The notes below the pieces were generated by a model that saw nothing but the letters and a program-made list of their open reading frames with translations, was not told the origin of the DNA and did no database searches. From Oscillospiraceae bacterium (GTDB lineage Bacteria; Bacillota; Clostridia; Oscillospirales; Acutalibacteraceae): 64,000 nt of DNA. Below, in pieces: positions 22,221 through 39,722 of this stretch (position 1 is the first letter of the stretch; each line of letters opens with the position of its first letter). The stretch spans positions 1-64,000 of the forward strand of contig CACYHA010000001.1 of the NCBI GenBank assembly GCA_902774035.1, read 5' to 3'. A program made the position numbers and the translations under genes.

Positions 22221-22436
22221 ATGAGTAAAAAATCTGTCGGCGGCATCTGCGCCGTCATCAGCATGGTCTCGGTTGCGGTGTTTTTGATCTGGGGGATGCT
22301 GGCGCATTCCTATGAGAACGCGTGGATCGTGTTTGTCATCAGCGGCATCGCCTGCGCCTCGGTCTCCATCATCAACCGCATCAAAACAGAAGAAGGAAAA
22401 GACAAAGAAAAGACCGACGGCAACAACAAGGAATAA
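22221..22436 (+). CDS. Small two-helix membrane protein
   Basis: A 71-residue protein from ATG 22221 (site GGAGGAGAG). Two membrane segments at about residues 6-27 and 34-51 are followed by a Lys/Glu-rich cytoplasmic tail. No family is recognised. It is the first gene of a unit with the LytTR regulator (23-bp gap) and the DUF3021 protein, so it probably belongs to that membrane-signalling module. Confidence 0.6.
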   Translation: MSKKSVGGICAVISMVSVAVFLIWGMLAHSYENAWIVFVISGIACASVSIINRIKTEEGKDKEKTDGNNKE

Positions 22437-22459
22437 GCAAAGGGAAGGAGTTGACGCCG

Positions 22460-22927
22460 ATGTCCCGGTATGACGTGACTGTCAGCTTTCGGGAGGATAA
22501 AACGCTGGATAACATTGAGATCCTGATCTCGGCGCCGGAGCGTTCGGCGCAGGTGGAGGAGCTGCTGGCGCAGTTTGCGCAAAAGCAGCAGTATCTCGAT
22601 CTGCCGACAGACGGCGGGCGGATCTTCCGCGTCAGGATCGACAGCATCATCCGCATCTACAGCCAGAACCGCAGCAACTATGTCTGTGTTGCCGACGAGA
22701 CCATTCGCACCTCGGCGTCGGTGAACGAGCTTGCGGAGCAACTGGATACCAGCGGTTTTCTGCGCATCTCGCGCTTCGAGATCATCAACCTCGCGAAGGC
22801 GGTGAACTTTGATTTTTCCATTGTCGGAGAACTCAAGATCAAGCTGGAGCAGGATCAGACCGCTTTCGCCTCCCGGCGTTATATCCCCGTGATCCGCGAC
22901 TACCTGAAAGGCGGTGAGAAACAATGA
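22460..22927 (+). CDS. LytTR-domain DNA-binding regulator
   Basis: A 155-residue protein. The C-terminal half contains the LytTR fold: GGRIFRVRIDSIIRIYSQNR, SVNELAEQL, FLRISRFEIINLAKAV and a final ASRRYIPVIRDYL. There is no receiver domain. Such short LytTR proteins are typically paired with a DUF3021 membrane protein that controls them; here that gene follows with a 4-bp overlap. The preferred sites are unknown. ATG 22460 is preceded by AAGGAG. Confidence 0.9.
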   Translation: MSRYDVTVSFREDKTLDNIEILISAPERSAQVEELLAQFAQKQQYLDLPTDGGRIFRVRIDSIIRIYSQNRSNYVCVADETIRTSASVNELAEQLDTSGFLRISRFEIINLAKAVNFDFSIVGELKIKLEQDQTAFASRRYIPVIRDYLKGGEKQ

Positions 22928-23352
22928 AACGACTTATCAAATATATGCTCGTCGGTTTTGCGGCAGGCGCCGCAATCGGCACGCTGATCGTGCTTTTCAT
23001 CTCCGGAGGTCATTTCTGTACACAGGTGCTTCTGGATCGCTTGGGCGGCAGTACCGCCGCGATCATCATCCAAACCGTACTTTCCGGTTTGATCGGCGCG
23101 GCGGGTTTCGGCGGCGTGCTGCTGTATGAGACCGATCTGCCCCTTGCCGCCGCTACGGTTTTGCATTTTTTGCTCATTGAAGCGGTCTTTCTGCCGTCTG
23201 CGCTGTTCCAGGGCTGGATCGAGTTCAAATTCTCGCAGATCGCCGTGATGATGCTGATACGGCTGGTTGCTTTCTTCATCGTTTGGCTGATCATGTTCTT
23301 CCGTTACAAACGTCTGACGAAAGAGCTGAACGACGAGATCAAAAAGCGCTGA
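22924..23352 (+). CDS. DUF3021 membrane protein
   Basis: A 142-residue protein with four hydrophobic segments: residues 8-27, about 44-62, 74-93 and 105-122, with a basic tail. The size, topology and fixed pairing with a short LytTR regulator identify DUF3021. In characterised pairs, the membrane protein acts as an inhibitor of the LytTR factor. It overlaps the regulator gene by 4 bp (ATGA). Confidence 0.85.
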   Translation: MKRLIKYMLVGFAAGAAIGTLIVLFISGGHFCTQVLLDRLGGSTAAIIIQTVLSGLIGAAGFGGVLLYETDLPLAAATVLHFLLIEAVFLPSALFQGWIEFKFSQIAVMMLIRLVAFFIVWLIMFFRYKRLTKELNDEIKKR

Positions 23353-27192: not shown

Positions 27193-27222
27193 GGGGCTGT
27201 TTTCAGAACAGCCCCCTTTTTT
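27193..27222 (+). terminator. Terminator after TipAS
   Basis: GGGGCTGTT (27193-27201) pairs with AACAGCCCC (27207-27215), followed by CTTTTTT. It overlaps the 3' end of the convergent sialidase gene. Confidence 0.75.
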
Positions 27223-28666
27223 ATGCTTTTGCGCCGTCTGCAAATGCAAGCGTTCCGTCGTCGCACAGGGAGAAAACGCGGTAGCTGATGTGCGCGGCCT
27301 CGTCTTCAAACAGAAGCGCGAAGCTGCCGTCGGAAAGCTCCGTGAGACACGAATAAGCGAAGAACCCTTTCCCGAGCCGGTTCGTTTTGATCCAACGGAT
27401 CTTCCCGTCGGCTTCCAGGAGCCCGACCCGGAGCACGCCGTCGGCGCGGCGCAGGAGATTCGACCCCATGGAAGCCAGAACCACCGGCTTTCCGTCGATC
27501 GTCTTCGAGGTGTTGATGAACGACACCATGCAGTTTTTTGTGCCGAACAGACGCAGCACCGCTTTGGCCTTTGACCAGCTAACGCCGCCGTCCGTGCTGT
27601 CGCAGCATCCCACAAAGTGCGATTTGTTGCGGGAAAACATGCGCAGCCGTCCGTCTGGCAGGGCAATGATCTGGGATTCGCTGGTTTTTCGCAGCAGCAG
27701 GCTGTGACGCACGTCTTCGCCGCGCTGCCAGGTCTTTCCGCCGTCGTCGGAATAGATCGTCAGCGCGTGTTCCCGTCCGTTTTCGTTGGAATACACCGGG
27801 AAAATCAGCCGCTCATGCCCGCAAAAGGAAAAGCGGATCCCGCGGCCGGGACAGACGCCGAGAAAAGCTTCCGCCTCGTGCTTGACCATCGGATTCAGCA
27901 GGGCGGGGGCGCTCCAGGTCTTTCCGCCGTCGTCGCTGTGCCGCAGGCATAAAAACGGCGTGGGGAACACATGAAGCTCGGAGGCGGCGAAAAAGACGCT
28001 TTGCGCAACGGTTTTTCCCGTTGGCGCATCCGCGTCCCCGCGCTGCGCAAGGGTGCAGGGGACGCCGTCCCGATACAGACGGTATTCCCGGTCAACGCTG
28101 TACGCGGTCTCCCTGTCTTCCTCCATTACCGGGGCAAAACCGCCGGAAAAATCTCCGATATGATAGCGGTAGTCCGCGCTCTCTCTTTCCGCGAGGGCGA
28201 TGCGGCTTTTTCCGCCGACGGAAAGGCAGCCGCTGCCTTTTTGCGCATTCAGGTAGCCCGTGCCGGAAAGAAACAGGTCGCACAGCATAAAAACGCGGCC
28301 GCTTTCGCTTTGCAAAAGCGCGGAATCAATGTAAGCGGCGCTCTCGCTGCTCCCGGCGCCTTCGGCGTAATCCTCCAGCCGGTTCGGCACACTGTAACTC
28401 CAGCGACCGTAACCGTCGGGTGAGACCGCGGCGGCAATGTCGAGATTTTGCGGCGCGTCTTTTCCGTGGTTCCAGCGCAGATCCGCTGCGGCGAGCACGC
28501 TGCCGTCCTGCAGGGTCAGCAGCGCGGGAATGCGGAACTTTTCGCAAAACAGCGTTCCGCGTTCAAAGGGGTTGCTGCAATCGGCCGCCGCAGCGCAGGC
28601 GAACGGGAGCGAAACCGGCAGCAGCGCGCTCAAAAAGAGCGACAGGATGCGGACAAATCGTTTCAT
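27221..28666 (-). CDS. Secreted exo-alpha-sialidase (GH33-like)
   Basis: A 481-residue protein with a signal peptide ending ACAAAADC. The arginine motif KFRIPALLTLQDGSVLAAAD (FRIP, the first of three sialic-acid-binding Arg) lies at about residues 43-47. Three Asp-boxes follow (SDDGGKTWSA, SDDGGKTWQR, STDGGVSWSK), typical of the six-bladed GH33 propeller. It should release terminal sialic acids from host mucins at the cell surface or outside. No nan catabolic genes are in the window. ATG 28666 follows AAGGAG; the longer open frame upstream lacks a signal. Its last 28 codons were duplicated at 25023-25110. Confidence 0.88.
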   Translation of the reverse strand: MKRFVRILSLFLSALLPVSLPFACAAAADCSNPFERGTLFCEKFRIPALLTLQDGSVLAAADLRWNHGKDAPQNLDIAAAVSPDGYGRWSYSVPNRLEDYAEGAGSSESAAYIDSALLQSESGRVFMLCDLFLSGTGYLNAQKGSGCLSVGGKSRIALAERESADYRYHIGDFSGGFAPVMEEDRETAYSVDREYRLYRDGVPCTLAQRGDADAPTGKTVAQSVFFAASELHVFPTPFLCLRHSDDGGKTWSAPALLNPMVKHEAEAFLGVCPGRGIRFSFCGHERLIFPVYSNENGREHALTIYSDDGGKTWQRGEDVRHSLLLRKTSESQIIALPDGRLRMFSRNKSHFVGCCDSTDGGVSWSKAKAVLRLFGTKNCMVSFINTSKTIDGKPVVLASMGSNLLRRADGVLRVGLLEADGKIRWIKTNRLGKGFFAYSCLTELSDGSFALLFEDEAAHISYRVFSLCDDGTLAFADGAKA

Positions 28667-28765
28667 AACAGGTCTCCTTCGGATTGCATCGGTTCTCCGT
28701 GTGATTGTACCACAGATTTTGAAAAAAGGGAAGAGGGCGCCGAAAAAACGGCAGACAAATGGCCG

Positions 28766-28829
28766 TTCACTCCCTCGAAACCGCTTTTCACTCCAAAACC
28801 GCTGCAATTTCCCCGCTTTGTGTTATGCT
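28766..28829 (+). promoter_or_regulatory. LytTR site and promoter upstream of the LytTR operon
   Basis: TTCACTCC at 28766-28773 and 28787-28794 (21-bp period) lies upstream of TATGCT at 28824-28829. The second octamer to -10 distance is 37 bp. A second possible promoter lies downstream (TTGCGT 28851-28856, 17 bp, TATACT 28874-28879), so there may be two starts. This suggests autoregulation by the regulator at 28914. Confidence 0.75.
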
Positions 28830-28913
28830 GGATCCGCAAACGAAGCCCGCTTGCGTTGCGGCAGCAAGTATGCTATACTGAACACAGAACCGAACCCAAA
28901 AGGAGGGACCCTT

Positions 28914-29609
28914 ATGAGAGTTGCATTGCTGGACGACGAAGCCGCCGTCACGGCGGAACTGGATCAACTGATCCACGCCTACGCCTTTGCCCGCGATTAC
29001 GACATTCAGTGCGAGCGCTTCATCGACGGCCGTGATCTGCTGAATAGCGGAAAGTTCGACCTGTACTTTCTGGATTTCTGCATGGATACCATGAACGGAA
29101 TCGAGGTCGCGCAGGCGCTTAAGGAAAAATACAGCCACGCCGTCACGATCTGCTACCTGACCAACTATGACGCCGTTGCTGCCGAAATTATCAATCGGGG
29201 CATCCACGCCGAAGGATTTTTGAAAAAGCCCGTGGATCCCGATCAGCTCACGGAAAAGCTCGATCAGTTTTTTCGCATGTCGTTCTTCAACCGGCTGGAG
29301 CTGCGGCAGGGCAAGCGCTTCCAGACCCTTTACGCGCAGGATATCCTCTATGTGGAGGCTGACAACAAGCAGGTGCGATTCCATCTGTTCGACGGCGTCC
29401 AGTCGTTTAATTATCTCCTGCGCGAGGTGGAAAAGCTGTTGCCCGCAGGCCTGTTTTACCGTGTTTCGCGCTCGTTCCTCGTCAATCTGCAGTACGTCGA
29501 TTCCTACGACGCAAAAAGTGTCACGCTGAAAAACGGCGAGACTCTGCCGCTGAAGTCAAAGGATTTTCAAAAGACCTATCATAATTTCATGTTCCTGTTC
29601 AACCATTGA
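28914..29609 (+). CDS. LytTR-family response regulator (AgrA/ComE-type)
   Basis: A 231-residue protein from ATG 28914, with an AAAGGAGGG site. The receiver domain has acidic residues DDE (7-9), phospho-Asp54 in YFLDFCMDTMNGIE and Lys in GFLKKPVDP. The LytTR DNA-binding domain follows (FQTLYAQDILYVEADNKQVR, LREVEKLLPAGLFYRVSRSF, LPLKSKDFQKTYHNF). It is translated ahead of a GHKL-type kinase (16-bp gap) and has a paired octamer site in its own promoter. Two further identical-architecture sites precede the genes at 31080 and 39051. Confidence 0.93.
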   Translation: MRVALLDDEAAVTAELDQLIHAYAFARDYDIQCERFIDGRDLLNSGKFDLYFLDFCMDTMNGIEVAQALKEKYSHAVTICYLTNYDAVAAEIINRGIHAEGFLKKPVDPDQLTEKLDQFFRMSFFNRLELRQGKRFQTLYAQDILYVEADNKQVRFHLFDGVQSFNYLLREVEKLLPAGLFYRVSRSFLVNLQYVDSYDAKSVTLKNGETLPLKSKDFQKTYHNFMFLFNH

Positions 29610-29625
29610 GAGAGGAGGCGATCCA

Positions 29626-30981
29626 ATGCTTGCCATTTCCGATCTTATCCGGCGCTCACCGGTGCTTTATGCGCTGATCTCCATGCTGGATAACTATGTT
29701 TTGATTGCGGGCTGCGCGTTTTTTGCGGTCTGTCTGTTCCATCTGAACCTGCGGCAAAAGGCCTGGCCCTATGTGACGTGCGCCCTGCTTTGCACCTTTT
29801 GCGGCACGGCGGAGCCTTTTTTGCTGGGCGCGTCGGATCTTGCGCTGCTTCTCTGGTCGGGCGTGACCCTTGCGCTGCCGTTCGTGTGCATGGCGCTGAT
29901 CTTTCAGCGTCCCGGCCTGTGGAAGGCGATGCTCACCGCGGCGGGCTACACCTTTATCGAAGCGCTGCGCTTTCTCGTGCTGCTGGTTTTCTTCGGCTTT
30001 GATAACGACAACCGCAACGACGCGCTGGAACTGGTCGTCGGCTTCCTTGTCGATGTTTCGGTCTTCCTGCTGCTGTTTTTGGTGCTCACACGCGTCGCCA
30101 GACGGCGCACGGTGTATGTGAACGTCACACGCGACGGCGCGATCCTGTTTTTGCTGATGGTCTTCACGGTTGCGGTCTTCATGTCCTCGCTGCTGCTGAT
30201 CGGCCCGGCCTATTCCGAGACCCGGCAGACCGAATTTGCCTTTTTGCTGCTGAACATTCCTGCCCTGACCGCAACGGTCACCTTTGCGCTGGTGCGCCTG
30301 TTCCGGATGCGCAGCGAATCGGAAAACTACAAAAAGCAGCTTTCGATGCAGATCCGCCAGTTTGAATGGATGGAGCACATGGTGGAGGATGTGCGTATGT
30401 TCCGCCACGATTTTCCGAAAAAGATGCGCCCGCTGATCGCCTATCTCGACGAAGACAGGCCCGATGAGGCCCGCGAGATGGCGCAGCAGTTCAGCGACTT
30501 TGTCGAAACCACCGGCGAACGCTTCCACACCGGGAACTACCGGCTCGACACCGTGCTGTTCTGCGAGCAGCAGATCGCGCAGCGCGACGGCATCACGCTC
30601 GACGTTTCCTTCGACACGGTGTTCCCGCCCGAGGGGATCGACCCCGACGACATCTACACGATCTTCCCCAACGCCCTCGACAACGCGATTGAGGCCACCC
30701 GCAAAGCGCAGGGGGAAAAGGTCATCACCTTCCGTTGCCGCTGCGCAAAGCAGACCGTTTACATCACGATCCGCAACCCGCTGGCAGCCGACGTGAAAAT
30801 GAAGGATGGCCTGCCCCAGACGACAAAGACCGACAGGGCCGCCCACGGCTACGGCTTCCGCTCGATCAAAAAAGCCGCCGCGAAGTACGGCGACGACAAC
30901 GTGAGCTTTTCGGCGGAAAACGGCATATTCGAGCTGCGGATCTTCCTCAATGTGCCGGAAACAGATAGTTCACTCCCTTGA
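29626..30981 (+). CDS. Membrane histidine kinase (AgrC-like, GHKL class)
   Basis: A 451-residue protein with about six membrane helices (residues 20-230) followed by the cytoplasmic kinase. MFRHDFPKK supplies the phospho-His near residue 264. The ATP-binding domain has FPNALDNAIEATRKAQG (N-box) and RAAHGYGFRSIKKAAAKYG (G-box). This class usually senses peptides or membrane stress. It is the second gene of the LytTR operon. Its final codons contain the first TTCACTCC octamer of the site that serves the next gene, 31080. Confidence 0.9.
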   Translation: MLAISDLIRRSPVLYALISMLDNYVLIAGCAFFAVCLFHLNLRQKAWPYVTCALLCTFCGTAEPFLLGASDLALLLWSGVTLALPFVCMALIFQRPGLWKAMLTAAGYTFIEALRFLVLLVFFGFDNDNRNDALELVVGFLVDVSVFLLLFLVLTRVARRRTVYVNVTRDGAILFLLMVFTVAVFMSSLLLIGPAYSETRQTEFAFLLLNIPALTATVTFALVRLFRMRSESENYKKQLSMQIRQFEWMEHMVEDVRMFRHDFPKKMRPLIAYLDEDRPDEAREMAQQFSDFVETTGERFHTGNYRLDTVLFCEQQIAQRDGITLDVSFDTVFPPEGIDPDDIYTIFPNALDNAIEATRKAQGEKVITFRCRCAKQTVYITIRNPLAADVKMKDGLPQTTKTDRAAHGYGFRSIKKAAAKYGDDNVSFSAENGIFELRIFLNVPETDSSLP

Positions 30982-31032
30982 AACGGCTTTTCACTCCAAA
31001 AGTGAAACAAATCAAACATTTTGTGCTATCAT
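30969..31032 (+). promoter_or_regulatory. LytTR site and promoter upstream of the 31080 gene
   Basis: TTCACTCC at 30969-30976 and 30990-30997 (21-bp period) with TATCAT at 31027-31032; octamer to -10 is 37 bp. The first octamer overlaps the kinase stop codon. Confidence 0.78.
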
Positions 31033-31079
31033 CAAAAAGCAAAGTCCAAATCCTATTTTTATGAAGGAGATGTGTGAAA

Positions 31080-34022
31080 ATGAAGAAAACCATATCCATC
31101 CTGTTGACGCTCCTGCTTTTGATCGGCATCGTGCCCTTGGCGCCTGTTGCGGCGACAGACGATAACGACCTGTTCCGCCTTTCCGGCACCTGCGGCGAGA
31201 ACATCACCTGGACGCTGGAGAACGGCACGCTGACTGTTTCCGGCGAAGGCGCGATCGAAGCGCAGACGCGCGAAAAAACGCAGACGCAAGTCGTTTGGAA
31301 CGGCGAAACGCGAAAATTCGAAGTCAAAACCGAACGTGAACAGGTCAGCTTCTATCCGTGGGATGAAGTGCTTGAGCTGGATCAAAGTCAGTTCTTTGAA
31401 AATGACGCGGACGCGATTCACTGGGTCGAAGAAGATCTGTCCAACTTTGAGGACTATTACCTCAAATACTTGAATACGGCGCATACGCTGGTGATCGAAG
31501 AGGACATCACTTCCGTCGGCGCCAGCGCGTTCGGCCAGTTCGCGTTTGAAAGCATCTACCTTCCGTCCACCTTGCAGTCTGTCGGTGAATGGGCGTTTTA
31601 TTTGGGATATACCGATCACCTGTATGTCAAGAATCCGTCAATGACCTTCGGAGGAAACGGCTTGCGTGTGGGCGGTTGGCATGACGAACAGAATGCCGCG
31701 CCCACGTGGTATACCTCAAGAGAATCCGCGTTTGAAACGCTTTATTGCAGTGAGGATTTCATCACCGCAGGTACGCTTGAAGTTTTGAGCGACGAGGGTT
31801 TGGACGCTCTGTTGGGCGCTGTTGCGCTGACGGACGGCTACGGCGACGCGGACTATTATGATTATGTGATGCAGCCTTGGGCAAAATACGGCGTCAACAC
31901 CCCGCAGGAGCTTGCGGCAAAGATGGTCGAAATCTTTAACGACAAGCTCGGCACGTCCTACGCTTCGGCGGATGAGATTCTTGTTCAGGCGCCGGCTTGC
32001 ACCTGCGAGACCTGCGACCATCACACGGCGCTGGAATGCAAATATGCCGGCTGCGCATGCTGCGGCTGCAAAAACGGCGACTATCATCCTGCCGACGATG
32101 AAAGAATCCTCTATGTCTATACAGACGATTTCTATACGACCTTCTGGACGGCGTATGATGCCGCGTGGGACAGCGCGTCGCTGTCGGAAAACTTTTTGAA
32201 CTTCCCGCTCGGTCAAGCGCCGCAGGGCGAATACATCAACGGCGACGCATCCGCTGTGTACGACCTCATTCCCGCACCGTGGCTGACCGTGCACGGCTAT
32301 GCCGGCTCCACCGCGCAGTTCGCAGCCGAAACGAGCGGCGTGAACTTTGTGCCGCTGGCCTTCGGCGGAACCTACGGCGACATCACCTGGTCGCTCGAAG
32401 ACGGCGTGCTGACCGTCGGCGGCAGAGGCGAGATCGTTCCCGCAACCCGCGTTGTGCCGTATGAAGCCGCCCCGGGCGAAGTCGGCGAATGGAACGAAGA
32501 ACTCGGCGATTATGACCCCGCGCCCACGACCCAAACGGAGGAATACTTTCCGTGGAACGAAGCATTTGACTTGGCTGTCGGCGGAGAGATCGGCGTTCCC
32601 GGATTCCAATTTGAAGAACCGTTCATCGAACTCGGTCTTGCGGATGCAGCAGAAGTGTTACAGGCAATGCTCAGCACCGTTCACACCATCGTGATCGGCG
32701 AAGGCATCACCGGCATCCGCGATTACGAGACCTTCAACATGTTCCTGCCGCAAACGGTGGTGCTTCCCTCCACCTTCGGTTCTTCGCCCACGGCGCAGTA
32801 TTTCATGGAAGAAGGCGCCTTGGACTGCAGTTTCATTCAGGATATTTATATCAACAATCCGCAGGTGGATATGGACCGGCTTCATATCGAGCTTTCCGGC
32901 TTCCAGGGCGAGAGCAGCCCGTTCGCCTCTGCTGACGATCTGGTCGACTATGCGCAGGAATTGTTCCGCGCAAGCTACAGATCCGAAGGCTTCTATACGA
33001 TCACCGGGTTCCTGTATGAGATCTTCTGCCTGAAAAACGGCTATGCCTATGAACTCACCGGCATGGAAATGACCGAAGACGAAGTGCTTGCAAAGCTTGA
33101 CGAATCCGTTGCCTTCTGGAACGAACATGCGCGCACGAACTATACGTCTGTGGATGAACTTGTTGCGGGGATCATCGAACTGATGAACGGACAGTTTTGC
33201 ATGAGCTTCACTACTCTGGATGAGATGTTTGTCGGCCCGCCGATCCCGGAATCCGACGGTGCAGTTTTTCCGCGGCAAAGCGCGGCGCTGACCGAAGCGT
33301 GGAACGCTTACGCGCAAACGGAAATCGAACCCTATGTGCAGGCGATCTACGGCGAAACCATGTTCGGCAGCTACTTCCTCGGCAACGCCCCGGTCGACCT
33401 CTTTGATCGCAACATGGAACCGCACACCGTTCCGCTGGTTCCCTCTCCCTGGATCACCATCCACGGCTATGCCGGTTCCACGGCCGAAACCGCGGCGGCA
33501 ACGAGCGGCGTGAACTTCGCGCCCCTTTGCCCGACGGACTACACCCACACCGTGACGGAAAAAGCCGAAGTCCCTGCCACCTGCACGGAAGCGGGCCACA
33601 CCGCCGGCTGGTACTGCGCGGACTGTGAACAGTATCTCACCGGGGAAGCGGTCGGCGCAACAGGCCATGCGCACACCCGTACCGTTGCCGCGACCGAACC
33701 CACGCGCAGAGTCCACGGCTTCACCGAAGGCGTCTTCTGCGACGACTGTCAGACGTACATCTCCGGCCACGAGGTGATCCACAACCAGCTCGGCTCCAGA
33801 CACGTGGTCAAACCCGCAACCGAGACTGAGGAGGGTGAAGTGGAGATCGTCTGCACCGTCTGCGGCGAAACCGGACTCTATGCACTCGACAAGCTCGAAC
33901 CGGAACCCGAGCAGGGAGATTCCGACAGCAGCGGAAACCCGGTTCTGGATTTCTTCCGCCAGCTTGCCAACGGGATCATGAGCTTCTTCCTGCGCCTGAT
34001 CAAATGGCTCGGCAAAAAGTAA
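31080..34022 (+). CDS. Very large secreted repeat protein with Cys-rich insert and amphipathic tail
   Basis: A 980-residue protein. The likely start is ATG 31080 (AAGGAG 10 bp upstream); an in-frame GTG at 31074 is too close to the site. After the signal peptide, two large homologous modules follow. Each opens GDITWSLEDGVLTVGG-like and contains a BspA-type leucine-rich stretch (HTIVIGEGITGIRDYETF; VLPSTF). Each ends HGYAGSTA..SGVNF. Module 1 has a Cys-dense insert (CTCETCDHH..CKYAGCACCGC), possibly a metal or disulfide knot. A Cys/His-pair region (CADCEQYL, CDDCQTYI, CTVCGETG) follows, resembling repeated zinc-ribbon-like modules common in gut Clostridia surface proteins. The end GIMSFFLRLIKWLGKK is an FFxxL-type tail. 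LytTR-regulated by site architecture. Confidence 0.78.
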   Translation: MKKTISILLTLLLLIGIVPLAPVAATDDNDLFRLSGTCGENITWTLENGTLTVSGEGAIEAQTREKTQTQVVWNGETRKFEVKTEREQVSFYPWDEVLELDQSQFFENDADAIHWVEEDLSNFEDYYLKYLNTAHTLVIEEDITSVGASAFGQFAFESIYLPSTLQSVGEWAFYLGYTDHLYVKNPSMTFGGNGLRVGGWHDEQNAAPTWYTSRESAFETLYCSEDFITAGTLEVLSDEGLDALLGAVALTDGYGDADYYDYVMQPWAKYGVNTPQELAAKMVEIFNDKLGTSYASADEILVQAPACTCETCDHHTALECKYAGCACCGCKNGDYHPADDERILYVYTDDFYTTFWTAYDAAWDSASLSENFLNFPLGQAPQGEYINGDASAVYDLIPAPWLTVHGYAGSTAQFAAETSGVNFVPLAFGGTYGDITWSLEDGVLTVGGRGEIVPATRVVPYEAAPGEVGEWNEELGDYDPAPTTQTEEYFPWNEAFDLAVGGEIGVPGFQFEEPFIELGLADAAEVLQAMLSTVHTIVIGEGITGIRDYETFNMFLPQTVVLPSTFGSSPTAQYFMEEGALDCSFIQDIYINNPQVDMDRLHIELSGFQGESSPFASADDLVDYAQELFRASYRSEGFYTITGFLYEIFCLKNGYAYELTGMEMTEDEVLAKLDESVAFWNEHARTNYTSVDELVAGIIELMNGQFCMSFTTLDEMFVGPPIPESDGAVFPRQSAALTEAWNAYAQTEIEPYVQAIYGETMFGSYFLGNAPVDLFDRNMEPHTVPLVPSPWITIHGYAGSTAETAAATSGVNFAPLCPTDYTHTVTEKAEVPATCTEAGHTAGWYCADCEQYLTGEAVGATGHAHTRTVAATEPTRRVHGFTEGVFCDDCQTYISGHEVIHNQLGSRHVVKPATETEEGEVEIVCTVCGETGLYALDKLEPEPEQGDSDSSGNPVLDFFRQLANGIMSFFLRLIKWLGKK

Positions 34023-34113
34023 GCGGCAGGAAACCGATTGCGTGAATCATCGGTCACATGGGAATCATCAGGGCGTGTTGCGGAAGAAATCGGCAGCACG
34101 CCTTTTTTCTCTC

Positions 34114-34253
34114 GCACGGCTGTGCCGTGCGGAAGGCGGCGGCGGGACCGCGCAGCCCCGGCTGCGCGGTTCGTGTGCGCATTTGCGCACACGAACGCCT
34201 CGTGCATCGCACGAGGCGTCCCGCCGCCGCTCCCCGCGCAGCGAAGCTGCGCG
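34114..34253. repeat. Cloverleaf-type palindromic element A
   Basis: The outer stem GCGGCGGCGGGAC (34136-34148) pairs with 34218-34230, perfect over 13 bp. Three hairpins lie inside: 34148-34169, 34170-34195 and 34196-34218. Flanking hairpins lie at 34114-34130 and 34235-34253. The rest of the gap (34023-34113, 34254-34299) has no gene. Confidence 0.75.
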
Positions 34254-34299
34254 AAAAAAGGCGTTGCCGCCTGCCTCCGGCCAGTTTTACGGAAAACGC

Positions 34300-34328
34300 T
34301 TGTGTTTCGAAGCGGTTTGTGTTATGAT
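34300..34328 (+). promoter_or_regulatory. Promoter of the amidase gene
   Basis: TTGTGT (34300-34305), 17 bp, TATGAT (34323-34328), 32 bp before the start codon. Confidence 0.55.
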
Positions 34329-34360
34329 AAAACATAAAGAAGACTTGAGGAGGACTGCGT

Positions 34361-35461
34361 ATGAAACGCTTTTTGTCTGTTTTCCTTGCAATTTTGCTTT
34401 TGTTCACCACTGTGTCGATCCTGACGCCCGGAGTTTCCGCAACGGCTGCGGCGGGGGACAGCTCAAACACAACTGTGTTCGATCGTGTGACGCAAAGCCT
34501 TCGCACGGCGTTTTTGCGCTTTTTCGAATGGCTGCGCTCCCTTTTTTCGCGTAAAACCGCGCCGGAGGAGATCGAGATCGACACGCCGCCCGAAACCTCG
34601 GCTGCGCCGACGACAACGACCGCGCCGCCCGAAAGCGACCCCTCGGTGATCTGCGACTCCCGGCCGTCCGATCCGACGGAGGGCACAAGCGCCGAAACGA
34701 CCCTCCCCGCGACGGAGACCCTCGCTTTCCGCGCCGACTGGGAATACGCTTCCTTTTCCGCGATCCACACCGGAAGCGTGACGCTTTACCGCTCGCAGGC
34801 CGCGCAGCGCAAGGGCAGGACGGTTTGCGTCAACGCCGGTCACGGCACAAAAGACGGCGACACGCAGTTCACGCTCTGCCACCCGGACGGGTCGCCGAAG
34901 GTCACCGGCGGCAGCACGGCTGCCGGAGCGATTCAGGCGACCGCAGTTGGCGGCGGCACAACGATGCTTGACGGAACGCCCGAGGCGCAGGTCACGCTTT
35001 CGCTGGCGCTGCTGGTGAAGGAAAAGCTCCTTGCCGCGGGCTATGACGTGCTGATGATCCGCGAAAGCGACGACGTGCAGCTCGACAACATTGCGCGAAC
35101 GGTTTTCGCCAACAACTGCGCCGATTGCCACATCGCCCTGCACTATGATTCTTCCACGAACGACAAGGGTCTGTTTTATTGCGGCGTGCCGGATGTGGAA
35201 TCCTATCGGAACATGGAGCCGGTGAAGTCGCATTTTGAAGCACACACCGCCTTGGGCGAAGCCCTGCTGCAGGGCGCGCGCGACGCCGGAGTCAAGATCT
35301 ACCGCACCGGCAGAACGGACATCGACCTCACCCAGACGTCCTATTCCACCGTGCCTTCCGTCGATCTCGAGGTCGGCGACCGCGGCTCCGACTACGGCGC
35401 GGCGGCGCAGGGCAAAATCGCCGACGGCATTGTACGCGGCGTAAATGCGTTTTTCGGATAA
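34361..35461 (+). CDS. Secreted N-acetylmuramoyl-L-alanine amidase (Amidase_3)
   Basis: A 366-residue protein. The signal peptide ends PGVSATAAA. It is followed by TAFLRFFEWLRSLFSRK (residues 49-65), an aromatic amphipathic helix like those in other exported proteins here, and a Thr/Pro/Glu linker (residues 66-120). The zinc amidase domain shows VCVNAGHG (His161), PEAQVTLSLAL (Glu ligand), IALHYDSS (second His) and a C-terminal SVDLEVGD. It cleaves the amide between MurNAc and the stem peptide. There is no SH3 or SPOR wall-binding domain, so the helix may be its surface association device. Monocistronic. Confidence 0.88.
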   Translation: MKRFLSVFLAILLLFTTVSILTPGVSATAAAGDSSNTTVFDRVTQSLRTAFLRFFEWLRSLFSRKTAPEEIEIDTPPETSAAPTTTTAPPESDPSVICDSRPSDPTEGTSAETTLPATETLAFRADWEYASFSAIHTGSVTLYRSQAAQRKGRTVCVNAGHGTKDGDTQFTLCHPDGSPKVTGGSTAAGAIQATAVGGGTTMLDGTPEAQVTLSLALLVKEKLLAAGYDVLMIRESDDVQLDNIARTVFANNCADCHIALHYDSSTNDKGLFYCGVPDVESYRNMEPVKSHFEAHTALGEALLQGARDAGVKIYRTGRTDIDLTQTSYSTVPSVDLEVGDRGSDYGAAAQGKIADGIVRGVNAFFG

Positions 35462-35494
35462 AAACGTGTAATATCACTGATTTAGACATTTCAC

Positions 35495-35523
35495 TTGCCT
35501 TTTCCGCTCCTTTGTGCTACAAT
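35495..35523 (+). promoter_or_regulatory. Promoter of the oxidoreductase gene
   Basis: TTGCCT (35495-35500), 17 bp, TACAAT (35518-35523), 32 bp before ATG 35556. Confidence 0.5.
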
Positions 35524-35555
35524 CATTTCATCAACAACGCAAAGGAGCGATCATT

Positions 35556-36734
35556 ATGCAATCTGTCCGTATCGGCATCGTCGGCTTCGGCAATCAGGGC
35601 AGCGCCTATGTCAAGCACATCCATCTGGAAAAGAAGATCGAGGGCGCGGTCATTGCCGCCGTGTGCGACGTCAACGCCGCCAAGCTCGACGCCCAGTGCG
35701 AAAAATTCGGCCTTTCCTGCCCGAAGTTCACCTCTCATGAGGCGCTGTTCCAAAGCGGCGAGGTGGACGCCGTGATCATCACCACTCCCCACTACTTCCA
35801 CCCGCCGATCGCCATCGACGCGATGAAAGCCGGACTGCATGTGCTCTCCGACAAGCCCGCCGGCGTCTATACCAAGCAGGTCAAAGAAATGATCGCCGAA
35901 GCGGGCAGGCACCCCGACCTTGTGTTCGGCATGATGTTCAACCAGCGCACGAACGAGGCCTACCGCAAAATGCGCGCCATGATCGCCGAAGGCGACCTCG
36001 GCGATGTCAAGCGCGTGAACTGGATCATCACCGACTGGTACCGCTCGCAGTCCTATTACGATTCCGGCGCCTGGCGTGCCACCTGGCGAGGCGAGGGCGG
36101 CGGCGTGCTGTTCAATCAGGCGCCCCATCAGCTCGATCTTCTGCCGTGGATCGTCGGCATGATGCCCGTTAAAATGCAGGCGCACTGCCACTTCGGCAAA
36201 TGGCACGACATTGAGACCGAGGACGACGTGACGGCCTACATGGAATTTCCCAACGGCGCGACCGGCGTATTTGTGACGACCACCGGCGATTTCCCCGGCA
36301 CGAACCGGCTGGAGATCCTCGGCACCAAGGGCAAGCTCGTTTGCGAAAAGGGCGAAAAGCTGACCTTCTTTGAAAGCGAGGTCGACGAACGTGAGTTCAA
36401 CCGCACCTACAAGGGCGGCTTCGGCACGCCGAAAATGACCGAGACCGTGCTGATCGAAAAGGCCGAAGCCAGGCAGCACGTCGCGATTTTGCAAAACTTT
36501 GCGGACGCGATCCGCGGCCTTGCCCCGCTGCAGGTGCCGGGCGTCGAGGGCATCAACGGCGTGGAGATGATGGACGCCATGCTGCTTTCGCAGTGGCTCG
36601 GAACGATGGTCGATATGCCGATCGACGACGATCTCTACCTCGCCGAGCTCGACAAACGCCGCGCAAGCGGAAAGCCGCTGGCACAAGAGAGCGGCACGGT
36701 GCTTGACACCGCCGGAACCTACGGCTCAAAATAA
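35556..36734 (+). CDS. Gfo/Idh/MocA-family NAD(P) oxidoreductase
   Basis: A 392-residue protein. The start at ATG 35556 follows AAAGGAG. The N-terminal Rossmann signature VRIGIVGFGNQGSAY with the following CDVN gives NAD(P) binding. EALFQSG..AVIITTPHYFH and HVLSDKPAGVYT (the EKP-like dKP motif) identify the Gfo/Idh/MocA family. HQLDLLPWIVG contains the usual catalytic-site His. These enzymes oxidise or reduce sugars, inositols or amino sugars; the substrate cannot be assigned. It converges with a GH127 arabinofuranosidase gene across a shared terminator, so a role in plant-glycan sugar conversion is plausible but not shown. Confidence 0.9.
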   Translation: MQSVRIGIVGFGNQGSAYVKHIHLEKKIEGAVIAAVCDVNAAKLDAQCEKFGLSCPKFTSHEALFQSGEVDAVIITTPHYFHPPIAIDAMKAGLHVLSDKPAGVYTKQVKEMIAEAGRHPDLVFGMMFNQRTNEAYRKMRAMIAEGDLGDVKRVNWIITDWYRSQSYYDSGAWRATWRGEGGGVLFNQAPHQLDLLPWIVGMMPVKMQAHCHFGKWHDIETEDDVTAYMEFPNGATGVFVTTTGDFPGTNRLEILGTKGKLVCEKGEKLTFFESEVDEREFNRTYKGGFGTPKMTETVLIEKAEARQHVAILQNFADAIRGLAPLQVPGVEGINGVEMMDAMLLSQWLGTMVDMPIDDDLYLAELDKRRASGKPLAQESGTVLDTAGTYGSK

Positions 36735-36750
36735 AAACATCAAAGCAAGG

Positions 36751-36784
36751 GGCGACGCAGATCATCCAATCTGCGTCGCCTTTT
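36751..36784. terminator. Bidirectional terminator between oxidoreductase and GH127
   Basis: GGCGACGCAGAT (36751-36762) pairs with ATCTGCGTCGCC (36769-36780), 12-bp perfect stem, 6-nt loop, then TTTT. Confidence 0.85.
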
Positions 36785-36885
36785 GCGCCGCAGCGGGACC
36801 ACCGCGCTGCGCGCGGTGAAAAAGGGCGCTGCGCGCCCTTTTTGCGCGGCCTGCGGCCGCGCGTCCCGCCGCGGCTGCCGCGAAG
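36785..36885. repeat. Cloverleaf-type palindromic element C
   Basis: The outer stem GCCGCAGCGGGAC (36787-36799) pairs with 36863-36875, one mismatch in 13 bp. Three arms lie inside: 36800-36818 (CACCGCG/CGCGGTG), 36819-36843 (AAAAAGGGCG/CGCCCTTTTT) and 36844-36862. This is the same plan as the element at 34114. Confidence 0.75.
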
Positions 36886-36908
36886 AGCCGCAAATTTTCC
36901 TGATTATC

Positions 36909-38747
36909 TTATTCCGCCCGGATCCAGACGGCCATATCTGTCTCGCCCCGGTTGGCAAAGGCATAGTAGGGGATGAACGTGACCGGAACTTCCCTGCGTG
37001 CGGCGGATTGTCCGTCGGAATAAAGCGGTGCGCTCTCGTCTTCGCTGCTTGCCGTGCCGCGGAACGTGATCACGTTCGCGCCGAATTTCGCGTCAAAGCG
37101 CAGCTCCGGTGTGCTGCCTGCGTCAACGATCAGGTCGAACAGTGCGCCCTTGTTGTCGATTTTCTCCAGACAGTAGACCAGCGGCCCGTACATCAGGGCG
37201 GCCTTGCCCGCGTCGGCGCGCACAGCCGGATGGGCGTGGACGAAGGTCGGCACCATCTCGAATTCGACGCAAAGTGTAAAGCTGTTGCTGTCGATGTTGA
37301 ATGCCGCATAGCCGCGCTGCATCGTGTGCGGGGCGGAAAAGGCGCTTTTTTTGCACCAGCCGGGCACGCGGATCAGAAGGCGTTTTCCCTTTGCGCCGGT
37401 GAGCGTGAGGCGGATCGTTCCGTCCAGCGGATAGTTTGTTTCCATCCGGAGCTTTGCGCCGCCGATGTCCGCGCTGCAGTTTGCGAACTGGTTCACAAGG
37501 ATCGCGTCGGCTCCGGCGGAAAAGACGCTGCTGCCGAGCGCGGCGTAATACCGCGTGACGTTCGGCGGGCAGCAGGAGCAGTCGAAAACCTCCAGCCGCT
37601 GCGTGATCGGCAGACGCTCGCTGTCGTTCACGCTGGTGTGACGCGCGCGGTCGGGGAGATTAATCTCCAGCGGATTCTCATAGAAAAACGCTTTGCCGTC
37701 CAGCGACAGCCCGGCCAGCACGCCGTTGTAAAGCTCGCGCTCCACCGTGTCGGCGTATTTGCTGTCAAGGTCGATCTCCTTCATCCGGTCGGCGAACATG
37801 GAAAGGGCGATCGACGCGCAGGTCTCGGCATAGGCGGTGTCGTTCGGCAAATCGTAGGGGAGGGTGAAGGCTTCGCCCATGTGGCTTGAGCCGATCCCGC
37901 CGGTGAGGTACATCTTTTTACGCGTAATATCATCGAACAGAGCGCGGCACGCTTCCAGCAGGGCTTTGTCGCCGGTTTCTTTGGCTGCGTCCGCCATCGC
38001 GCTGTATAGATAGCACGCGCGCACGGAATGACCCATGGCTTCGCGCTGTTCCCTGACGGGCAGATGCGACTGGTTGTAGTTCGACTTGCACCAGCCGATG
38101 TCGTTTTCCTCTTTTTTCCCCCGCTCGTTCAAAAAGAACATGGCAAGATCCAGATATTTTTTGTCGTGCCGCAGCCGATAGAGCTTGAAAAGCGCCAGCT
38201 CGATCTCCTCGTGTCCGGGCGTCATAAATCCTGCCGAATGCTCCACACAGAAAACGCGGATCACAAGGTCGATGTAGCGCTCGAGCAGCTTCAGCAGACG
38301 GTCGCGTCCGGTGGCGTTGAAATAGGCGACGCCGGCCTCGATCAGGTGGCCGAGGCAGTACAGCTCATGGTGGTCACGGTTGCGAAAGCGTTCCTTCGGC
38401 GCAACCACGGTGTGATAGATGTTGAAATAGCCGTCCTCCCGCTGGTGCTGTTCGATGCAGTCGATGATGTGCTCGATCTGCGATTGCAGCTCGTCGTTCG
38501 GCGCCTTTTGCAGCAAAAACGCCGCGCTTTCCATCCATTTCGCAATGTCGGAATCCCAGAAGATGTGGGGCTTCGGGATGTCGCTGCCCTCGGTCCAGTC
38601 AAATTCGAACGCGCGGAAGCGTCCGGTGTCCGCAAAGCGGTCGCGCACGGAAAAGATCGTCACATCGCGGATGAGCTTCTGCTTGTCTGCCCAAAATCCG
38701 CCGGTGATATCAACTTTTGAAAAATCAACGGAAGAAAACTGATCCAT
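36909..38747 (-). CDS. GH127 beta-L-arabinofuranosidase-type glycoside hydrolase
   Basis: A 612-residue cytosolic protein (no signal) of family length. FSKVDITGGFWADKQKLIRD then GRFRAFEFDW...PKPHIFWDSDIAKW and HHELYCLGHLIEAGVAYF are typical of the (alpha/alpha)6 barrel. The CCPPN motif in DCSCCPPNVTRYYA provides the zinc-binding cysteines, including the catalytic cysteine used by HypBA1-like enzymes, and GGIGSSHMGEAF matches the active-site loop. It should remove beta-L-arabinofuranose from plant glycans taken up as oligosaccharides. No transporter is adjacent. ATG 38747 follows GAGGTG. Another arabinan-active gene (GH43) is at 49307. Confidence 0.88.
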   Translation of the reverse strand: MDQFSSVDFSKVDITGGFWADKQKLIRDVTIFSVRDRFADTGRFRAFEFDWTEGSDIPKPHIFWDSDIAKWMESAAFLLQKAPNDELQSQIEHIIDCIEQHQREDGYFNIYHTVVAPKERFRNRDHHELYCLGHLIEAGVAYFNATGRDRLLKLLERYIDLVIRVFCVEHSAGFMTPGHEEIELALFKLYRLRHDKKYLDLAMFFLNERGKKEENDIGWCKSNYNQSHLPVREQREAMGHSVRACYLYSAMADAAKETGDKALLEACRALFDDITRKKMYLTGGIGSSHMGEAFTLPYDLPNDTAYAETCASIALSMFADRMKEIDLDSKYADTVERELYNGVLAGLSLDGKAFFYENPLEINLPDRARHTSVNDSERLPITQRLEVFDCSCCPPNVTRYYAALGSSVFSAGADAILVNQFANCSADIGGAKLRMETNYPLDGTIRLTLTGAKGKRLLIRVPGWCKKSAFSAPHTMQRGYAAFNIDSNSFTLCVEFEMVPTFVHAHPAVRADAGKAALMYGPLVYCLEKIDNKGALFDLIVDAGSTPELRFDAKFGANVITFRGTASSEDESAPLYSDGQSAARREVPVTFIPYYAFANRGETDMAVWIRAE

Positions 38748-38863
38748 AGTTGCACCTCGATTGTTTCAGGATGATAAAAATATACCATGATTTCGGTTAA
38801 AATGCAAGGTGGTTTAGCTTTCCCGGCTTTGCTTTTTTGCTGCGGAGGAGCGTGATGCATCGT

Positions 38864-38927
38864 TTCGTTCCCTGTTTTGCGCATTTCGTTCCCTGCAGAT
38901 TGAAAAAAGAAAAAAGCTTGCTATAAT
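38864..38927 (+). promoter_or_regulatory. LytTR-like site and promoter upstream of the 39051 lipoprotein
   Basis: TTCGTTCC at 38864-38871 and 38885-38892 (21-bp period), TATAAT at 38922-38927; octamer to -10 is 37 bp. The bases differ from the other two sites (TTCACTCC) at positions 4 and 5 only. The remainder of the 38748-39050 gap carries the GH127 promoter side and a 120-base leader, with no gene. Confidence 0.65.
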
Positions 38928-39050: not shown

Positions 39051-39722
39051 ATGAAAAGAATTCTTGCGATTTTTTTAGTGGCAATCATGTGCGTATCGTT
39101 GACTGCTTGCGGCGGAAAGAAGAAGAAAGCATTCGAAGCATCAAAGGCGGCATATGATAACATCAATACCGCATATGAGATCTCCGAACAGTTCAGTGAA
39201 GATATCTATGAAGCCTGGCGTTTGGGAATCTATGATAAGGATAAACTCATCGAAAACGGAATCAAGTATTTGGATGCAGAGCTTCATTTGAGCGAGAGCG
39301 AGCTTGAACAGGGCTTGATCTATTCCTATGCCGAAGGACTGGGGAAAGACGTTTCAGAGCTTTCTGAGACAGAGAAGAGTAATCTGATCAATTATCAGTC
39401 TGTCGTTTTCACCACGGCAAAGAGTGAAATGTTCAGCTTTTGCGTACATATGGTTCGAGGGGCATACACAGTCAACGGAAAGATTGAAGAAATCCAGGCC
39501 GCTTTGGATCAAGCCAAGGCGCAGATGAAAGAATTAAGCGATAAGTTCTCTGACTATGAGCATTATCCAAGCCTTAAAGGATTCTACACAACAACGAGCG
39601 CTCTTTTTGATTTCTGCCAGAATCCGGAAGGCTCTTTCGAACAAGTCATACAGACAATTAACAACTACAGGAACGAAGCACGGGATTATATGAATGATTT
39701 GAAGTATATTTTTGAGGGGTAA
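39051..39722 (+). CDS. Lipoprotein of unknown function, likely LytTR target
   Basis: A 223-residue protein. ATG 39051 follows GGGAAGGG; the longer open frame upstream lacks a site and a signal. MKRILAIFLVAIMCVSLTAC gives a lipobox at Cys20, followed by GGKKKK. The mature part is strongly helical and charged: KKKAFEASKAAYDNINTAYE, ALDQAKAQMKELSDKFSD. I recognise no family; such lipoproteins often form membrane-anchored helical bundles. It is AT-rich compared with neighbours. Its promoter has the same architecture as the two LytTR sites at 28766 and 30969. Confidence 0.7.
   Translation: MKRILAIFLVAIMCVSLTACGGKKKKAFEASKAAYDNINTAYEISEQFSEDIYEAWRLGIYDKDKLIENGIKYLDAELHLSESELEQGLIYSYAEGLGKDVSELSETEKSNLINYQSVVFTTAKSEMFSFCVHMVRGAYTVNGKIEEIQAALDQAKAQMKELSDKFSDYEHYPSLKGFYTTTSALFDFCQNPEGSFEQVIQTINNYRNEARDYMNDLKYIFEG

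Follow-up and report, generated by a model that had tools for sequence, protein, structure and literature searches.

Paralogous LytTR modules in an Oscillospiraceae bacterium probably read separate variants of a 21-bp-period repeat

When three promoters share one repeat geometry, do they answer to one regulator? The question is raised by the window, a stretch of 64,000 nucleotides at the start of contig CACYHA010000001.1 (assembly GCA_902774035.1) of an uncultured Oscillospiraceae bacterium that probably lives in a gut. It contains a gene for a LytTR response regulator at 28914 and three pairs of TTC(A/G)(C/T)TCC octamers, each with a period of 21 base pairs (bp) and a -10 hexamer downstream. 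The original prediction placed all three pairs in a single regulon made up of the regulator-kinase operon, a secreted protein and a lipoprotein. Our analysis makes it likely that the genome instead carries several paralogous LytTR/GHKL modules, each reading its own variant of the repeat, and that the window sites belong to two regulons. We worked with sequences, positions, statistics, family membership and co-occurrence, and from these we infer binding, activation, signal and insulation. The features are listed below, with the operators classed by the central triplet of their octamers (ACT or GTT).

28766-28773 and 28787-28794, plus strand: operator pair TTCACTCC-13 bp-TTCACTCC, ACT class, ahead of the operon for the LytTR regulator and its kinase
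28824-28829, plus strand: -10 hexamer TATGCT, preceded by TGn and starting 37 bp beyond the second octamer of the 28766 pair
28914-29609, plus strand: LytTR response regulator, receiver plus LytTR, 231 residues, Asn at residue 151
29626-30981, plus strand: GHKL (HATPase_c_5) sensor kinase, 451 residues, N-terminal half hydrophobic
30969-30976 and 30990-30997, plus strand: operator pair TTCACTCC-13 bp-TTCACTCC, ACT class
31027-31032, plus strand: -10 hexamer TATCAT, preceded by TGn and starting 37 bp beyond the second octamer of the 30969 pair
31080-34022, plus strand: secreted output protein, 980 residues, signal-peptide-like N-terminus, aromatic C-terminal tail
38864-38871 and 38885-38892, plus strand: operator pair TTCGTTCC-13 bp-TTCGTTCC, GTT class
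38922-38927, plus strand: -10 hexamer TATAAT, preceded by TGn and starting 37 bp beyond the second octamer of the 38864 pair
39051-39722, plus strand: lipoprotein, 223 residues, lipobox-like LTAC

Direct reading of the sequence gave the same octamer coordinates as had been predicted (28766/28787, 30969/30990 and 38864/38885), and the 21-bp period and the start of the -10 hexamer 37 bp after the second octamer were correct at all three sites. In the excerpts of the papers cited here, the 9-bp repeats of LytTR operons are mostly 12 bp apart and often 10 bp upstream of the -35 (PMC6193735), with spacers of 11-13 bp (PMC4847170). For LytTR response regulators, an operator is expected to consist of two such repeats, each of 9-11 bp. 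The period and the promoter close downstream agree with this published geometry, and the sites look like LytTR-type operators, as predicted. The form of the half-site in an outer clade of regulators, ACCGTTCATTCC, suggests that the octamer corresponds to positions 5-12 of the usual LytTR repeat. A -10 at +38 from the octamer is then at +42 from the repeat, and 42 equals 9 + 10 + 6 + 17, the layout in the excerpt of PMC6193735 with a 17-bp promoter spacer. Similarly, +37/38 from the octamer is +41/42 in the ACCGTTCAT register seen in G033y.

The assembly searched has 2,295,736 bases, is 85% complete and includes the contigs that we call C6, C17, C29, C32 and C35. In a genome search of the kind that the prediction had proposed, here for the octamers alone, exact pairs at the 21-bp period were found five times (three in the window) and the reversed pattern, our control, not at all; random occurrence of the pattern genome-wide, which would have counted against the prediction, was not what we saw. 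Further searches required TATNNT at +37 or +38 and allowed up to 3 mismatches. At +37 they returned the three window sites with 0 mismatches and one 3-mismatch site on C35; at +38 they returned C29 (1 mismatch), C32 (2 mismatches) and 3-mismatch sites on C6 and C17. The control gave 0 in both cases. The idea that these are chance or compositional repeats with no regulatory function finds its support in looser searches, which also tell against our own reading: with 2 mismatches and no -10 required, 23 pairs were found genome-wide vs 11 in the control, and with 3 mismatches the pair was at chance within the window (9 found vs 7.86 expected). The signal therefore resides in the exact matches and the full geometry. 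Chance origin was ruled out by the exact-pair control, the -10 register and the spike at spacing 21 alone, the last two being described below, and we give it practically no credence.

The octamers of one site have the same central triplet (ACT/ACT or GTT/GTT) in all five exact sites of this genome, and no mixed pair is among them. The pattern TTC(A/G)(C/T)TCC merges two operators, TTCACTCC pairs (28766, 30969 and C17) and TTCGTTCC pairs (38864 and C29). The next best site after the exact ones is on C32, where a TTTGTTCC/TTCGTTCC pair stands directly before a paralogous LytTR regulator, one of six LytTR matches in the genome. This regulator gene is followed by genes for a GHKL kinase and a secreted protein of 1231 residues that combines a transglutaminase-like domain with LRR repeats of the BspA type. 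The TTCGTTCC pair on C29 precedes the gene for a secreted von Willebrand-domain protein. The flanking bases follow the same division. T precedes and C follows every octamer of the GTT sites (38864, C29 and C32), and the two promoter-linked ACT sites both have G..C around the distal octamer and T..A around the proximal one. The 28766 and 30969 sites, with the regulator-kinase operon between them, have the same octamers and flanking bases and agree at 11 of 13 spacer positions; at 30969, the distal octamer overlaps the last codons of the kinase gene (gene end 30981).

The operator at 30969 matches that of the 28914 regulator at 16/16 positions and that of the C32 regulator at 11/16. The 38864 and C29 operators match the C32 operator at 15/16 positions and the 28914 operator at 12/16. 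Because 38864 is closer to the C32 operator, the type that heads the paralogous regulator genes, the lipoprotein is better assigned to the C32 regulator; most likely it belongs to this second regulon. The single-regulon claim is corrected to that extent, while its other part, a shared operator at 28766 and 30969 framing the regulator-kinase operon, is supported.

A third module, on C6, is built alike. Its regulator (C6:191561) is preceded by CCGTTTATC/CCGTTTATC and accompanied by a GHKL kinase, and CCGTTCATC/CCGTTCATC precedes the output gene, which encodes a secreted protein. A search with this operator gave 5 matches, 2 of them at C6 in promoter position; the remaining 3 need 3 mismatches, and with that many allowed the control also gives 2.

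These modules can be placed in one scheme, which is a proposal. The 28914 regulator, phosphorylated by its kinase, would activate its own operon (28766, a site that we infer to be autoregulatory) and the adjacent secreted protein (30969) via TTCACTCC pairs. The C32 paralogue would activate its own genes, the von Willebrand-domain protein on C29 and the window lipoprotein (38864) via TTCGTTCC-type pairs, and the C6 module would use CCGTTTATC/CCGTTCATC pairs. Two regulator molecules would occupy the two half-sites on one DNA face, just upstream of the -35 region, and help RNA polymerase at the promoter. The -35 region is poor at both ACT promoters (28766 and 30969), where a good -35 is absent, and fair at 38864 (TTGAAA at 38900-38905, 16-bp spacer to the -10) and at C32 (TTGACT). 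This would create a positive feedback and switch on surface or secreted proteins.

The survey of related genomes covered 34 genomes of the genus and 84 others, 118 in all with the window's own included. The exact pair is present in 19 of the 118, namely 12 genus genomes (55 sites) and 7 others (one site each); the reversed control gave 4 matches in 3 genomes. A -10 matching at least 4 of 6 bases lies at +37/38 at 51 of the 55 genus sites (6.1% expected) and one matching at least 5 of 6 at 39 (0.8% expected), with TGn present at 26 of the 51. By a crude heuristic, the gene downstream of these sites encodes a regulator of the 28914 family in 8 cases (9 with G022:C68:20480, which the heuristic missed), a signal-peptide-like protein in 34, a heuristic class passed by 16 of 56 window open reading frames, and something other or unassigned in 13, among them 38864, whose start was misplaced.

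The DNA upstream of the regulators' own genes was examined for repeats in a test that assumes no motif. From 105 regulators collected we omitted 20 as duplicates, 4 for their short upstream DNA and 2 as fragments, which left 79 that are related to one another and hence not independent. At spacing 21, a 9-bp repeat with 8 or more matching positions lies between -190 and -50 in 35 of the 79; each of the other spacings between 11 and 41 gives 0-4. A model of half-sites and -10, fitted on the very upstreams that it scored, placed 59 of 79 above the 99% level obtained by shuffling the upstreams. The half-sites are diversified, among them TTCACTCC, TTCGTTCC, TTCATTCC, TTCGCGCC, TTCACACC and TTTACTCC. 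In other genera of the family (51 LytTR regulator loci, 37 usable), the spacing-21 repeat is at background, with 2 of 37 at 8/9 vs 0-3 at other spacings, so the feature seems to belong to the expansion in this genus.

If the 28914 regulator tolerated A or G and C or T at the two central bases, it could control all three window promoters, the lipoprotein's included. This would fit the identical geometry of the three sites, the 6 of 8 octamer bases that they have in common, and the mixed half-sites in some relatives' own operators and targets. We hold this single-regulon explanation to be unlikely. It is opposed by the lack of mixed pairs among this genome's five exact sites, by the GTT-type operator that the second regulator has before itself, by the flanks of 38864, which match the C32 and C29 sites in both halves, and by co-occurrence: GTT/GTT pairs are found in 6/6 genus genomes that encode a C32-type regulator (identity at least 81%) and in 1/28 of the others (Fisher p = 5e-6, a test that ignores kinship). 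Two regulons in the window remain our preferred interpretation. In G012, a comparable division was seen, with three targets identical to one regulator's operator (16/16) and three others identical to a second regulator's asymmetric operator (16/16).

Several results weigh against paralogue-specific operators. On C17, the exact ACT pair lacks a promoter in register, and 20 of the 79 regulators are not above the null of the model. G009 has GTT/GTT pairs, and no C32-type regulator was found in its assembly, which is 87% complete. When 42 sites (one of which, G022:C68:20480, is a regulator's own site) were compared with the regulators of their own genomes, their similarity was only modestly higher than with shuffled genomes (14.67 vs 14.21), and 63 of 2000 shuffles were as high; the match of site to regulator is poor in G011 and G009. 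In the operators that some regulators have before themselves, one half is ACT-like and the other GTT-like (TTTACTCC/TTCGTTCC in L206 and L207), and targets of ATT/ACT type are present in G019. Such mixing of half-sites in relatives makes cross-binding plausible. Regulons might then overlap, with a main regulator for each promoter, cross-binding by paralogues, and two signals integrated at 38864. The half-site degeneracy of the relatives and the ComE/BlpR precedent in pneumococcus (PMC4739728, excerpt) speak for such an arrangement, and the two classes, clean in octamers and flanks within this genome, speak against it; by our analysis it is very improbable. The C17 pair (C17:13596-13624, G000) lies upstream of the TTGACT/TATAAT promoter of a 1404-residue secreted protein. 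We set it aside as a further ACT target because it is reversed, some 100 bp from the promoter, and misfits the geometry.

If each paralogue reads its own repeat, which residue could set the choice? A scan of the variable columns in the 28914 clade (47 regulators) singled out residue 151 for the fifth base at the distal half-site. In the 59 regulators with a called operator, this base is C with Asp (25/25) and Asn (9/9), and T with Gly (11/12), Lys (8/8), Glu (3/3), Arg (1) and Ala (1). In-sample, residue 151 is right in 58 of 59 cases (34/34 Asp/Asn with C; 24/25 others with T). When the training excluded sequences at or above 70% identity, it was right in 56 of 59; the next columns reached 51 and a constant answer of C reached 35. 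The proximal half-site is called less well (48/59; next column 47). The changes on the tree number only 4-5, the independent pairs are too few for a test, and the scan over many columns and base positions was post hoc; all this tells against a code. By eye, L228 and C6 agree with it, G011d agrees only via its genome's targets, and L232, G005y and G021y disagree at the distal half. Residue 151 sits in the turn that joins two predicted strands (144-150 and 153-158) and aligns to a loop of AgrA, three residues ahead of where the contact residue His169 of AgrA aligns. The place of His169 was fixed through the alignment together with AgrA FFRCHNS 196-202 (PMC4227749, excerpt). We tentatively suggest, as a minority possibility, that residue 151 determines which base stands fifth in the half-site, C going with Asp/Asn and T with Gly/Lys/Glu, and that its changes have split duplicated LytTR modules of the genus into separate regulons deploying different tail-bearing secreted proteins.

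The 28914 protein is a LytTR response regulator by its domains, a receiver (PF00072, 52.8 bits) followed by LytTR (PF04397, 57.8 bits), both above cut-off. A fold search gave full-length ComE as best match, with AgrA LytTR structures among the best. Its named relatives are metagenome-assembled Clostridia/Ruminococcaceae, many from goat, sheep or buffalo rumen or omasum; one genome is from horse faeces. The kinase encoded beside it is of the AgrC/ComD type, with a C-terminal HATPase_c_5 domain; PF14501 scores 75 bits here, 85.4 bits in the C32 kinase and 82.2 bits in the C6 kinase. The 980-residue output protein has an LRR_5 match under the Pfam cut-off. The lipoprotein has no Pfam match. At E 0.001 it has matches in 7 of 34 genus genomes, its own included; those in the other genomes are weak or partial only, the best having 27% identity.

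Among known systems, AgrA/AgrC of Staphylococcus aureus is similar in joining a LytTR response regulator to a sensor kinase, and AgrC is likewise GHKL-type. AgrA also has two direct repeats, upstream of P2/P3 (PMC4227749, excerpt), but the half-site sequence differs here. Membership of the Agr family is unsupported: a search for AgrB (PF04647) at E 0.001 found no match in the assembly, itself 85% complete, and this search had no positive control, since none of 14 control genomes passes the cut-off either. ComE/ComD and BlpR/BlpH of pneumococcus are paralogous systems in one cell, and the blp promoters have 9-bp tandem repeats and an extended -10 (PMC4739728, excerpt). They control competence and bacteriocins and cross-induce, whereas the outputs here are secreted proteins and the classes look more separate. 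YpdB of E. coli is a LytTR regulator acting on a two-copy direct repeat (PMC4847170, excerpt); unlike our case, the YpdA/YpdB system has a LytS-type kinase, another half-site and a single reported target gene. The LytTR regulatory systems (LRS: HdrRM, BrsRM and relatives), as excerpted in PMC6193735, have own operons headed by direct repeats upstream of the promoter, with five paralogues in one genome and diverged repeats. Their partner is an inhibitory membrane protein with no kinase, whereas the 28914 protein has a receiver, adjoins a GHKL kinase and is linked to secreted outputs. An LRS-like pair, apart from the 28914 system, is present at 22424-23352: a LytTR protein without receiver match, then a DUF3021 protein.

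LytTR regulators, GHKL kinases, 21-bp repeats, autoregulation and paralogues with diverged repeats are already known. The literature matches listed (titles and starts of abstracts) include no report of this regulator family in rumen Clostridia. New here are the large set of paralogues, whose operators have diverged alongside the regulators and head secreted-protein genes, the probable paralogue-specific operators with a candidate specificity residue, and the likely placement of the lipoprotein in a second regulon. LytTR sites are described as sharing a layout and no consensus (PMC4847170, excerpt), which makes regulator-target matching from sequence hard. Because many of these paralogues show an operator before their own gene, regulator-target assignment and a recognition code become testable, and secreted proteins of uncultured gut Clostridia can be tied to particular sensor systems. 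As a caution for similar searches, a degenerate pattern like TTC(A/G)(C/T)TCC can fuse two regulons.

Some minor observations concern the surroundings of these genes. A second -10 with TGn, TGCTATACT, lies at 28869-28879, 50 bp downstream of the operator-linked -10 and before the regulator; similar sequence is present in G019a and G015a, and it is possibly a basal promoter. On the minus strand, a BNR-repeat protein gene (27221-28807) is divergent beside the regulator gene, and a GH127 beta-L-arabinofuranosidase gene (36909-38747) diverges from the lipoprotein gene.

Many operator-linked secreted proteins have a short aromatic amphipathic C-terminal tail, for example DFFRQLANGIMSFFLRLIKWLGKK, whose end is often basic and which may be a signal for retention or sorting. 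It is encoded at 33900-34022 in the window and occurs in L013 (C29), in 22 other listed genus targets and also in L017, the C32 output. At least four Phe or Trp in the last 30 residues were counted in 24 of 35 listed targets (6 of 41 rows having been omitted after viewing) vs 9 of 55 window open reading frames. Five GTT/GTT sites (G001:C4:61259, G009:C114:5653, G022:C30:2491, G022:C68:14522 and G028:C41:32252) are followed by genes for related proteins with a zinc-ribbon-like start (CSCG..FCTNCG) and, by the heuristic, no signal peptide; three of the five lie some 5-6 kb downstream of a C32-type regulator.

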